From NCBI GenBank assembly GCA_023957235.1, contig JAMLHI010000003.1, positions 343,371 through 407,370 of the forward strand: DNA of 64,000 bases, read 5' to 3'. This stretch comes from Chitinophagales bacterium. GTDB lineage: Bacteria; Bacteroidota; Bacteroidia; Chitinophagales; JADIYW01. The position numbers and the translations under genes are program-made. Shown here piece by piece: positions 56,443 to 59,986 of this stretch; positions within the stretch are counted from its first letter, which is position 1; each line of letters starts with the position of its first letter. The notes under the pieces are model-generated. The model was not told where the DNA came from. It was given only the letters and a program-made list of their open reading frames with translations, and did no database searches.

Positions 56443-57375
56443 TTATAGAGATGAATGGCTGTTGTGCCAGTTTTTTATTTGACAGATGGCTGATATGAGA
56501 TGGATGTATTGTCTGATTTCATGATGACTCACTGTAGTATTGACTTTGTTCTTTAGCCAATACTGTATCGGAAGGATATCGCCAAATTGAAAATTCCACA
56601 GATCTTCAGATATATTGGTGAGAAATATCTTTTGATTCACTAGTATTTGTTCACTTTGATAATCAATATTTTGAATAGTGTTTTCTACTGGATAATCAGC
56701 GTGAACTTGAAAGTTTGCTATCTCCAATTTTTGTAAAAGTTGGATATTTCTAAGGTCTTTCCCCGATTGTACAATTTTCCAAAATGAATAGTCATCTCTA
56801 GGAAAGGGAATAAATGAACTAAGATTAGAGTTGATGAATGAAAAATTAAGAACAGCTAATGTGTAATCCAAAATATGTAATGGTGTGAAATAAGTGCGAA
56901 ATTCGTCTCGGACTTCCTGACTTTGAACAAAGCATAAATTGGTTTCAGGGGGTGTATGTCCTAAAAAATCAAGATTCAGGATTTGTGAAAATTGATCTAA
57001 AATATCAGGATTCAGATTGCTTTTTTGTATGGCTTTCTGCTTTTTGTCATGTTTAGCAATCCAAAGAGGATAACTCTTAAAACAGGTAGAAGTCAAATCT
57101 TTTGTCTGAATGGGAAGTGCTATATTTTGTGTGATAAAAGCTTTTATACTTTTGTTTTGAGGAAAGTGATGGATAGTAAAGCAATCATTGAGAAGGGACT
57201 CAGTATCAGGATGATGATTGAAAATAAAAGGAGAACAATAAAGAAGTAAATTACTTCTGCTTATCTCTAATGCAATATTTTGATTTACCTTATTAGAGTC
57301 ATGAATAGGAGTATAGTGATGGATGAATAGTTCTTCTATTGTAAATCCTTCTTTTTGAAATATGTTTATATCCAT
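56443..57375 (-). CDS. Orphan type-ISP restriction enzyme specificity-like domain
   Basis: This protein of about 310 residues starts at ATG 57375 or at 57408. Its C-terminal half resembles the target-recognition domain of LlaBIII/LlaGI-like type ISP restriction-modification proteins: FTPLHILDYTLAVLN, DDYSFWKIVQSGKDLRNIQLL, a YPVEN segment, then EDLWNFQFGDILPIQYWLKNK. The methylase and helicase-nuclease parts are absent here and in the neighbouring genes. It is either a decayed remainder or an independent protein. It overlaps the DUF3024 gene if the upstream start is used. Confidence 0.65.
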   Translation of the reverse strand: MDINIFQKEGFTIEELFIHHYTPIHDSNKVNQNIALEISRSNLLLYCSPFIFNHHPDTESLLNDCFTIHHFPQNKSIKAFITQNIALPIQTKDLTSTCFKSYPLWIAKHDKKQKAIQKSNLNPDILDQFSQILNLDFLGHTPPETNLCFVQSQEVRDEFRTYFTPLHILDYTLAVLNFSFINSNLSSFIPFPRDDYSFWKIVQSGKDLRNIQLLQKLEIANFQVHADYPVENTIQNIDYQSEQILVNQKIFLTNISEDLWNFQFGDILPIQYWLKNKVNTTVSHHEIRQYIHLISAICQIKNWHNSHSSL

Positions 57376-57392
57376 ATTCAAAGATTTTTCTA

Positions 57393-57740
57393 TTATCCAA
57401 AAAAGCAATGATGCTTATCTTCTTCAACAAGTTGAGTAAATTCAATCAAACTCTTAACTGTCGGTTGGGGTGGATAACTATGCCATTGCAAGTCTGCTCT
57501 TTTCCAAAATACTTTCCAGTGATTTTTAGCTTTTACAAATGTTGTCTTTGCAAACGGATGTTCGCGAATTACTTCAGGCTTGTTCCATTGAGGTCTGATT
57601 TCAAAAACTATGATGCTTTGGTCTTCAATTTTATATCCAATATCTAATTGGTTTCTTATATGTTCAGGCGGTCTTTTTCTTGAAAGAAAATTTTCCATCG
57701 CTTCAATAACTTCTAATGTTTGTAAAATGTTAATCGCCAT
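57393..57740 (-). CDS. DUF3024 family protein
   Basis: This 115-residue protein has a conserved-looking IRNQLDIGYKIEDQSIIVFEIRP, FAKTTFVKAKNHWKVFWKRADL and WHSYPP, which I recognise as DUF3024, a family of unknown function. It lies immediately upstream of the orphan specificity domain and may be co-transcribed with it. Confidence 0.75.
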   Translation of the reverse strand: MAINILQTLEVIEAMENFLSRKRPPEHIRNQLDIGYKIEDQSIIVFEIRPQWNKPEVIREHPFAKTTFVKAKNHWKVFWKRADLQWHSYPPQPTVKSLIEFTQLVEEDKHHCFFG

Positions 57741-58030: not shown

Positions 58031-58345
58031 TTATTCAACATAAGTTTCCATTATCACAGATTTCACTGCTTGGATTTCTTTAGCTGTAAGGTTGCCTAAT
58101 TTTTTGATAATCCTTATTCTGTCCACCGTTCTGATTTGGTCTAAAACTACCCAACCTTTCGTTTTGCCTTGTTTAATTTCAACTCTTGTCGGATAAGGTT
58201 TTGAACTGCTTGTAAGCGGTGCTATGACTATTGTTTGAAGATATTTGTTCATTTCGTTTGGTGATATTACAGCACAAGGACGAGTTTTTTTTATTTCACT
58301 TCCTATAGTTGGGTCAAGACTAATCAAAACCAATTCGTATTGCAT
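58031..58345 (-). CDS. mazF: MazF/PemK-type endoribonuclease toxin
   Basis: This 104-residue protein starts at ATG 58345 (an upstream ATG at 58354 would add three residues). LDPTIGSEIKKTRPCAVISPNEMN and TIVIAPLTSS, then WVVLDQIRTVDRIRI mark the MazF fold, with the catalytic Arg and Thr of the family. It cleaves mRNA when not bound by MazE. Its start overlaps the MazE stop. Confidence 0.92.
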   Translation of the reverse strand: MQYELVLISLDPTIGSEIKKTRPCAVISPNEMNKYLQTIVIAPLTSSSKPYPTRVEIKQGKTKGWVVLDQIRTVDRIRIIKKLGNLTAKEIQAVKSVIMETYVE

Positions 58346-58590
58346 TATTTCCATTCTTCAAAAGTTTCGTCTTCAAAAATGTCGTCAATCAGCAATTGGT
58401 CATCTCCGTTTGCGTGCATCATTTTGAAAGATTTCTCCCAACCTTTTCGAGGAACAGCTTTCGGTTTTAGGACAATTCTGCCTTTTTCTAAAATCAATTC
58501 AAGCGTATCACTAATATTATACTGCTCCAAAATTGATTTTGGCAACCTAATGCCTTTTGAGTTTCCGATATTGATTACTTGGACTTCCAT
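58345..58590 (-). CDS. mazE: MazE-type antitoxin (AbrB-like)
   Basis: This 81-residue protein has the swapped-hairpin DNA-binding start VQVINIGNSKGIRLPKSIL, LELILEKGRIVLKP, and an acidic tail (DDIFEDETFEEW) for toxin binding. It overlaps mazF by one base. The pair is a type II toxin-antitoxin module. Confidence 0.92.
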   Translation of the reverse strand: MEVQVINIGNSKGIRLPKSILEQYNISDTLELILEKGRIVLKPKAVPRKGWEKSFKMMHANGDDQLLIDDIFEDETFEEWK

Positions 58591-58913
58591 AAAAATCTTG
58601 TTTGTGACTACAAAGTAATTACTTTTTTCTTAAAAAACAAATTTTTAGTACTATTTCACCCCACTGTGGTTTTTAGGTGTTCTCACTTATCTTTTATTTT
58701 TAGTAGTGTTCGTGAATACCTATCGGTTTTTATTTAGACGAATTTTCGATGATGCCGATTTCTTTTTCCGTCAAATCTTAAACCGTGGGCTATGGATGTA
58801 CACGAATATATTTACAATGGATTTTGGAGTGTAAACCTATTGCTGGTCAATGCAAAAAGGGAACTGCCAAAAAAATTTGACAATTCCCTCATCTTTAAAC
58901 ACATTTTAATACA
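58591..58913. other. Intergenic region with a small coding relic
   Basis: No intact gene is present. On the minus strand, around 58735-58781, a frame reads DLTEKEIGIIENSSK and then stops, like the last residues of a larger protein; endings of this type occur in DNA methyltransferases. Given the orphan specificity domain nearby, a decayed modification system is possible, but the fragment is very short. Confidence 0.3.
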
Positions 58914-59444
58914 CTATACTGCTACTTCGATATCTTCGGTTTTCTTGATAGTAATTTTTCCTTGAACAGGTGTAGGGTTTGAGATGATATCCAAAACTGG
59001 GCAAAATGATTCTACTAGTTTGGATAACTCTAATAGTTTAGCTGGGTCTTCATTGGAAGTGATGATAGTTTCAAATTCTACTTTACTGAAGCCAGGTCTT
59101 TCTTTTTCATCTAGTCCCAAGAAGCCTTGCAGGTTTAAATGTCCTTTGGATTTGACAGTTAAGTCTTGAATTTCAATTCCTTGTAAAGATGCTAAAGCAC
59201 GATAAACTATTGCTTGGCATGCGCCTAGAGATCCTAGTACATATTCTACTGGATTGGGGGCAGAATAATTACCACCTAATACTTCTGGCTCATCAAAATT
59301 GTACTCAAATTTTCCTGAGTGCGCTTTTACATTGAGTTGTTTTCCAAGTGTAGATGTGGCTTGGAAGATAGCATTGGATTGCTCTGGGTGACTTTTTAAT
59401 TGTCCGATGAGTGTTTCAAAGGATGCTTTAATGGCTGTTGACAT
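58914..59444 (-). CDS. OsmC family protein
   Basis: This 176-residue protein has the OsmC/Ohr fold with SAPNPVEYVLGSLGACQAIVYRALA, which includes the Cys of the CxxxxxxR-type active centre, and a second Cys in VESFCPVLDII. Members reduce organic hydroperoxides or process sulfur compounds. The mRNA leader contains a SAM-I riboswitch and a poly-Cys ORF, so expression probably follows sulfur amino acid supply. Confidence 0.9.
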   Translation of the reverse strand: MSTAIKASFETLIGQLKSHPEQSNAIFQATSTLGKQLNVKAHSGKFEYNFDEPEVLGGNYSAPNPVEYVLGSLGACQAIVYRALASLQGIEIQDLTVKSKGHLNLQGFLGLDEKERPGFSKVEFETIITSNEDPAKLLELSKLVESFCPVLDIISNPTPVQGKITIKKTEDIEVAV

Positions 59445-59640
59445 AATAATTGGTTTTTATTAATAAATGAATAAATAAATAATTTAAAATTTGATTTATT
59501 AGCTAATGATAATTAGCATGGTGTGATATATCTTAAAATTGATTTGAAAATTCTTTTTATAGGAATATTTGAAATAAAGAAGTCAAATATTAACTAAAAG
59601 GAATTCTTTCAGATGACTTAGACGATATCAGGGAAAGATA

Positions 59641-59682
59641 TTAGCAGCAACAACAGCAACACATCATAGCATTTGACATCAT
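59641..59682 (-). CDS. Poly-cysteine leader peptide ORF (13 codons)
   Basis: ATG at 59682 reads M-M-S-N-A-M-M followed by six Cys codons (alternating TGT/TGC) and TAA. Nothing else in the region explains such a run. It lies between the SAM-I aptamer and the OsmC gene on the same strand. Leader peptides of this kind couple ribosome stalling at scarce amino acid codons to expression of the next gene; here the sensed amino acid would be cysteine. No ribosome binding site is evident, which is normal in this phylum. Confidence 0.65.
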   Translation of the reverse strand: MMSNAMMCCCCCC

Positions 59683-59767
59683 TTGTTGATGAATCAAATC
59701 TTGTGTTGTGACAAGGATTGTCTGTTGGTTTGTTTCGTTGTTGCGTTTCATTCTTTTTTGTTTTTCA

Positions 59768-59866
59768 ATTTATATTTTCCTTTTTAGGGACAGGATTTGG
59801 CACCTTCATATTTCTATTGGTTGCCAGTGGGTCACAGAGCCAGTCTCTCACCACTTCTTTATAAAT
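59768..59866 (-). ncRNA. SAM-I (S-box) riboswitch
   Basis: The minus strand has the conserved aptamer parts in order: AAGAAGTGGTGAGAGACTGG, then TGACCCACTGGCAACC, then GGTGCCAAATCC. The ends ATTTATA and TATAAAT (59860-59866 and 59768-59774) pair as P1. The consensus GGCAACC and GGTGC-AA-TCC are exact. S-adenosylmethionine binding would reduce expression of the downstream transcript, which contains the poly-Cys leader and the OsmC gene. I do not see an obvious expression-platform terminator, so translation or attenuation may be the output. Confidence 0.88.
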
Positions 59867-59867
59867 C

Positions 59868-59892
59868 CAGAATTTAAAATTTTCAAATTCTG
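59868..59892. other. Inverted repeat upstream of the riboswitch
   Basis: CAGAATTT (59868-59875) and AAATTCTG (59885-59892) are exact complements around a 9-bp AT-rich spacer. It lies between argS and the SAM-I aptamer. It could be an argS terminator (no T tract), an operator, or part of the leader structure. Confidence 0.4.
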
Positions 59893-59986
59893 AAGCTGTG
59901 TTTTCTCAAACACAAAACGAATATAGAAATGTTTTTAAAATTTATATACTAATTGTAATTTTTTTTAAAAATATTTTTTTGGAGGA

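Follow-up and report, generated by a model that had tools for sequence, protein, structure and literature searches.

On the minus strand of the window, as we call the whole 64-kb stretch of DNA that was analysed, a gene for an OsmC-family protein of 176 aa (osmC, 58914..59444) stands behind a three-part leader, made up, in order of transcription, of a SAM-I (S-box) riboswitch aptamer (59767..59867), a short open reading frame (ORF) of 36 codons (59641..59751) that closes with six consecutive Cys codons, and a gap of 196 nt from the leader stop codon to osmC (59445..59640). All features of the locus described below are on this strand. The leader region comes after the end of an ORF that, judged by eye, is arginyl-tRNA synthetase-like, and just upstream of the leader is a putative -7 element (TATATTCG, 59918..59925), a weak candidate that is identical in another genome of the same genus, L012 (the Bacteroidota consensus is TAnnTTTG, as quoted in PMC9723704). 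Because an intrinsic terminator, recognised from the sequence as GGGAATTGTC..GGCAGTTCCC followed by T5, lies 3' of the gene at 58854..58890, osmC is probably monocistronic. The encoded protein matches PF02566 with 62.3 bits (cut-off 27.5; E 6e-17) and, when aligned, has both conserved cysteines (in GACQ and FCPV), as is characteristic of the OsmC/Ohr family; it scores far under the Ohr equivalog cut-off and, at 90.2 bits, under the cut-off of 95 for NF041052.

The aptamer is the sole Rfam match within the window. It spans the full RF00162 model (positions 1-108) at 79.1 bits, E 5.9e-17, where the gathering cut-off is 44.4, and so bears out the first-pass annotation, which had placed an S-box aptamer ahead of an OsmC gene. 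Immediately 5' of the aptamer is a hairpin (CAGAATTT..AAATTCTG, 59868..59892; from sequence and folding) whose stem is kept in L012. That annotation had further described a 13-codon ORF with six Cys codons; the ORF and its six Cys codons are real, but its length is 36 codons, the 13 being the in-frame 3' tail. The leader ORF reads MKRNNETNQQTILVTTQDLIHQQMMSNAMMCCCCCC up to its stop, that is, MKRNNETNQQTILVTTQDLIHQQMMSNAMM followed by CCCCCC, and its ATG is about 15-16 nt downstream of the 3' strand of P1, the closing stem of the aptamer. The Cys run, TGT TGC TGT TGT TGC TGC (59644..59661), directly precedes the TAA stop and is the proposed cysteine sensor. The locus has in common with known SAM-I riboswitches a full-length aptamer above the Rfam cut-off, and genus- and order-level relatives have SAM-I in front of metH, metX and metY; the present case differs in that a poly-Cys leader ORF, rather than the target gene or a terminator, comes first downstream.

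Aptamer, 36-codon ORF and osmC occur together in L012 as well. There the leader ORF aligns to that of the window with zero indels, in the same frame, and with all six of six Cys codons kept, despite amino-acid changes at ten codons; the synonymous differences are one TGC/TGT exchange in the Cys run and a TAG in place of the TAA stop. Over the roughly 190 nt behind the leader ORF, alignment of the two genomes requires 22 gap runs. This is the anatomy expected of a Cys-responsive leader, namely a short ORF with a run of control codons that is kept in relatives. The genome that contains the window has 41 CC-x-CC sites, against 5 for the mirrored pattern, and when the first 30 of the 41 were checked, those in ORFs of less than 80 codons were only the leaders of osmC, sfnG and cysM and one chance site. 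The sfnG leader (MKNTFFLKTNTDTIARHHHLLDACICCCICCMCCFMPMC, L003) is a second SAM-I aptamer with a Cys-rich leader, standing before an LLM monooxygenase gene, and this arrangement is kept in a third genome of the genus (L033), where the protein, L126, is dimethylsulfone monooxygenase SfnG by NCBIfam (equivalog, 529.9 bits vs 382.95). In both of these aptamers a core AGTAACC..GGTACT replaces GGCAACC..GGTGCC; the change is compensatory and kept in both species, and the variant may differ in ligand affinity. The genome's third SAM-I aptamer stands before metH and has no Cys leader. Across this genome and 59 relatives, a Cys leader is found behind 5 of 48 aptamers: the genome's own two, the same-genus orthologs of both, and one before cysH in another family (L046).

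A scan of 84,980 genomes, which demanded a SAM-I core and, 105-135 nt further on, four or more Cys codons, but no start, frame or stop, yielded 96 loci, and in 93 of them the Cys run lies inside a short ORF with an ATG start (14-49 codons, most 30-42). The other three (L071, L115, L120) are false matches and were set aside. Among the 92 loci analysed for its position, the Cys run is at the stop codon in 48 and no more than four codons from it in 86. Of 17 loci sampled, 16 score above the Rfam cut-off, at 67.7-82.7 bits. Taxonomy was taken from 80 of the 96 record titles, of which 75 refer to Bacteroidota (Sphingobacteriales, Cytophagales, Saprospiraceae, Chitinophagales and, in a few cases, Flavobacteriales), two give no more than 'bacterium', and three point to other phyla, two of these failing the ORF test. 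Outside the Cys run the leader peptides are unrelated, with 36 of 3655 pairs being similar, so that the run is their sole common feature. Because at least four Cys codons were demanded at one spacing, the scan count is an undercount from which no distribution of run lengths can be derived; and since the 93 loci share ancestry within genera, they are not phylogenetically independent.

Short runs of Cys codons do arise by chance elsewhere in genomes, and one might suppose that those behind the osmC aptamer are accidental and that the aptamer alone matters. The conservation and recurrence of the run make this explanation negligible, as does the location of the run within an ORF at 93 of 96 loci. 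A permuted control in 395 Bacteroidia, with GTY in place of TGY, gave no independent match, all that it returned being one genuine Cys run read with a shift, whereas the true TGY pattern was present in 6 genomes. By this strict pattern the arrangement occurs in about 1.5% of the Bacteroidia species sampled; judged from these genomes, SAM-I followed by a poly-Cys leader is widespread, not common. The first-pass annotation had proposed a search for poly-Cys ORFs behind S-box aptamers in relatives and had named loss of the Cys run there as evidence against its idea; the 93 loci answer the former, and the latter did not occur.

The genes downstream of these leaders fall into clusters of O-acetylhomoserine sulfhydrylase (OAH sulfhydrylase, metY; 54), RimK-like ATP-grasp proteins (9), 4Fe-4S ferredoxin (8), the sulfite/nitrite-reductase family (6), CysH (5), OsmC (3), TonB receptors (2), MetX (1), SfnG (1) and others (3). 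By gene content, then, the targets of SAM-I plus poly-Cys leaders are a sulfur-assimilation regulon, which is the pathway expected of a Cys-responsive leader; sulfur-assimilation genes stand at nearly all loci, and OsmC is linked to the pathway by association only. Because the other targets are sulfur-assimilation genes, OsmC is a plausible member of the regulon. It had been regarded initially as an unusual target of S-box control, a view that does not hold, since there is precedent. In Pelagibacter, a SAM-V riboswitch precedes osmC, and no transcript is induced more strongly than that of osmC when sulfur is limiting (PMC5069961); the likeness is that of an osmC gene behind a SAM riboswitch, and the differences are that the riboswitch is of another class and that no Cys leader is reported there. 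Within Bacteroidota, SAM-I directly precedes osmC and a PLP gene at two loci (L011, L031) and precedes osmC by way of a poly-Cys leader at two more (L065, L095).

Several members of this collection deserve separate mention. TonB-dependent receptor genes behind SAM-I and poly-Cys leaders (L067, L138) are candidate organosulfur importers. RimK-like ATP-grasp ligases, candidates for thiol-peptide synthesis, stand behind such leaders in Hymenobacter, Pontibacter and two Flavobacteriaceae (L055, L061, L064, L082, L098, L102, L108, L124, L133), the Hymenobacter leaders being merely 14-15 codons long (MRRAGMGCCCCC..). At a metY locus with the same aptamer subtype (L021), a 9-codon leader, MTYLRCRMR, follows just after the aptamer and has no Cys run; possibly another codon is sensed there, or the leader has decayed.

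Cys leaders also occur in this lineage apart from an aptamer. In the genome of the window, the leader MKNKLQLFRNLAVCCCCCCTITDR (L165; C12:138304-138378, minus strand) has no aptamer and precedes a cysM/JAMM/ThiS/ThiF-like operon, the layout of which recalls mycobacterial CysM-Mec-CysO. An antiterminator strand overlapping the leader stop, AGGTGAGG, can pair with CCTCACCT (-14.2 kcal/mol), and the latter doubles as the 5' arm of an intrinsic terminator (-12.1 kcal/mol). A ribosome stalled at the Cys codons would leave the antiterminator free, and one that reached the stop would cover it. The same switch is present in L166 and, in another genus, in L167, and a similar one precedes a sulfite-reductase-like gene in L168. 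Because a textbook attenuator with Cys codons as its only sensor precedes cysM, poly-Cys leaders in this lineage are, by their anatomy, cysteine sensors. At two further loci (L068, L092) the aptamer is followed by two tandem poly-Cys leaders and then by an intrinsic attenuator before a gene of the sulfite/nitrite-reductase family; a terminator with a competing antiterminator is thus found at all six of the loci L165-L168, L068 and L092. At L046 a terminator lies between aptamer and leader. Given the intrinsic terminators of L068 and L092 and the aptamer-leader terminator of L046, the wiring is not uniform among loci.

These attenuators also bear on whether the poly-Cys peptide might instead be a functional small protein, a ligand of thiols or metals that is co-regulated by SAM and senses nothing. 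Runs of cysteines could bind metals or thiols, and OsmC, as its aligned cysteines indicate, is likewise a thiol protein; yet the N-terminal sequences of the peptides are unrelated among loci and the run alone is kept, the Cys-only leaders of the same genome lie in complete attenuators, and the targets are genes of sulfur assimilation, all of which render this explanation very unlikely. The two-sensor reading offered by the first-pass annotation, in which Cys codons report cysteine supply and the aptamer reports SAM, is strongly supported by the comparison, through its 93 loci, their sulfur-assimilation targets and a Cys run that is the only feature the peptides share. That the osmC leader is a cis-acting sensor of both SAM and Cys we regard, from its sequence and that of its relatives, as highly probable.

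How the two sensors would be coupled is suggested by their spacing. At 14 of the 16 loci sampled, 6-15 nt separate P1 from the leader ATG, and the same geometry puts metX directly after P1 in L008 (+9) and L023 (+12); there are known translational SAM-I riboswitches in which the 3' strand of P1 contains the ribosome-binding site (PMC2258182). It is conceivable that the SAM and Cys devices merely act independently in tandem, the aptamer by itself controlling transcription or RNA stability with no gating of the leader. Independent tandem control does exist, as L046 has its own terminator between the two, but a leader ATG at 6-16 nt after P1, as seen in the window and at 14 of the 16 loci sampled, gives no room for one, and we consider independent action improbable here. 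Gating of leader translation by P1 is, from this geometry, probable.

The output step is less easily assigned. No intrinsic terminator was found in the osmC, cysH and sfnG leaders, and with neither terminator nor antiterminator between leader and gene, a classical intrinsic attenuator was rejected for osmC. The gap itself is C-rich and G-poor (28 C, 11 G) and contains a hairpin predicted by folding (AATATTTGA..TCAAATATT, 59564..59591), the arms of which are kept in the L012 alignment. One alternative retains both sensors and supposes that base pairing is the output, such that a stalled ribosome refolds the RNA and thereby frees the osmC start, after the manner of mycobacterial poly-Cys leaders, or avoids an unrecognised AT-rich terminator. 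Cys attenuators with intrinsic terminators, in the genome of the window and at the sulfite-reductase loci, lend it some credit, as do the metY leaders of Mucilaginibacter, which have a hairpin just past the leader stop with some compensatory changes and whose Cys codons, TATGTGTT, hardly vary at the nucleotide level. Set against these are the missing terminator in the osmC, cysH and sfnG leaders, a predicted accessibility of the osmC start of 0.67-0.70 at every ribosome position, by which folding reveals no start sequestration, and a pairing potential between the Cys run and the gap, the leader start or the gene start that is near chance across 86-92 loci (mean z -0.3 to +0.2). We therefore rate base pairing as a rather unlikely output. 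Two individual pairings were also examined. That of leader start with Cys codons, GCAACAAC/GTTGTTGC, is striking by eye but was dropped because it did not exceed shuffled sequence in 92 loci; that between Mucilaginibacter Cys codons and the gap behind them, TATGTGTT/AACACGT, is suggestive, is missing from the osmC leader and, being nearly invariant, gives no covariation.

The position of the Cys run points elsewhere. From run to stop there is a median of 0 codons in SAM-linked leaders versus 5-9 in leaders with intrinsic terminators (p 1e-4). The C-over-G skew of the gap is positive at 92% of loci and exceeds that of other SAM-I leaders only slightly (p 0.013), and Rho is encoded in the genome. 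Given a Cys run immediately before the stop and a C-rich, G-poor gap behind it, Rho is the output that we favour, with that gap as proposed Rho-entry region; as the output of the osmC leader Rho remains a tentative assignment, somewhat short of an even chance, and the rut site a candidate. E. coli tnaC is a Rho-dependent attenuator in which ligand-induced arrest takes place at the end of the leader ORF. The osmC leader resembles tnaC, which is cited as a model in PMC1262725, in having its proposed stall site, the six Cys codons, at the extreme end of the leader, followed by a terminator-free gap, and a Cys run that abuts the stop would suit the masking of a site just behind it, as in tnaC. The two differ in that the stall in tnaC is a ligand-induced arrest, whereas the cause proposed here is a lack of Cys-tRNA, and the rut is a candidate only. 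Work on Rho in Bacteroides leaders (PMC10294740) has no bearing on this leader.

Combining P1 gating with a Rho output, we propose that bound SAM would close P1 over the leader start site and so block leader translation. When SAM is low the leader would be translated, and a shortage of Cys-tRNA would stall ribosomes on the six terminal Cys codons, the stalling being inferred from the sister attenuators. A stalled ribosome would let transcription run into osmC, most likely by masking a Rho-entry site just past the leader stop; if SAM were high, leaving the leader untranslated, or cysteine plentiful, releasing the ribosome, Rho would terminate transcription in the C-rich gap. It follows from these steps that osmC is predicted to be on only when SAM and cysteine are both short. 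On balance we favour this full reading, a two-input leader for sulfur status with a P1-gated leader ORF, stalling at Cys codons and a Rho-type output. Its extension to the phylum, whereby Bacteroidota SAM-I aptamers would directly gate the translation of poly-Cys leaders as a hierarchical AND gate (low SAM, low cysteine) that is read out by Rho and forms a phylum-wide layer of sulfur-assimilation control, could well be correct but has, in our estimate, marginally less than an even chance.

Each element has known relatives. Mycobacterial poly-Cys sORFs (Canestrari et al. 2020, as cited in PMC13236596) are leaderless, and stalling on them releases a sequestered downstream start; leader peptides with Cys runs have been described in Actinobacteria (PMC1262725). 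Like the osmC leader, these are short ORFs that end in a Cys run before sulfur or cysteine genes and have no conserved intrinsic terminator. They differ in belonging to another phylum; moreover, the osmC leader ORF sits behind a 101-nt aptamer and starts right behind SAM-I, which rules out a leaderless sORF of the mycobacterial type, and predicted folding reveals no sequestration of the osmC start. Attenuators of the trp/his type, exemplified for Cys by uORFC-8-2, a Cys-Cys uORF before cysS in Rhodobacterales (PMC8632094), likewise have leader peptides with codons for the sensed amino acid. The cysM leader of the window genome is of this type; the osmC leader, with its Cys run abutting the stop and neither terminator nor antiterminator, is not. 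The SAM-I riboswitch of Xanthomonas also binds uncharged initiator tRNA (PMC7270179) and so is a SAM-I leader with a second input and translational control, but that input is tRNA-fMet binding to the expression platform, whereas here it would be a translated Cys leader. In F. psychrophilum, leader-peptide attenuation before amino-acid operons receives a general mention only (PMC9723704).

A search of the open literature, with most subscription papers outside its scope, turned up neither a SAM riboswitch coupled in series to a Cys leader nor any description of poly-Cys leaders from Bacteroidota, which agrees with the initial impression that the arrangement is undescribed. SAM-I followed by a poly-Cys leader looks like an undescribed two-input form of sulfur control. 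Riboswitches and leader-peptide attenuators are usually regarded as separate devices, and in many Bacteroidota, as here, they are joined in series, so that one transcript would read both the end product (SAM) and the precursor amino acid (cysteine) before a sulfur gene is expressed. It would be a concrete example of a sensor peptide that is itself under riboswitch control, would explain how methionine and cysteine supply are coordinated in a phylum with little known sulfur regulation, and would bring into a sulfur regulon OsmC, SfnG, enzymes of the RimK-like ATP-grasp type and certain TonB receptors whose role is unknown.

Two minor observations concern the genus and the surroundings of osmC. 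At the tRNA-Cys locus of the window genome (L202) no poly-Cys leader was seen; in a genome of the same genus (L171, 409-950), a tRNA-Cys(GCA) gene (810-882) and a peroxiredoxin-like gene are preceded by two poly-Cys leader ORFs in succession, each with a hairpin resembling an intrinsic terminator behind it, and tRNA-Cys may there be under attenuation by cysteine codons. Downstream of osmC in the window, two small ORFs (58031-58590) resemble, by eye, a MazE/AbrB-type antitoxin and a MazF/PemK-type toxin, and an ORF of 321 aa (56443-57408), whose match to type ISP restriction-modification enzymes is confined to their C-terminal specificity domain (PF18135), is likely a remnant or fragment of such an enzyme.
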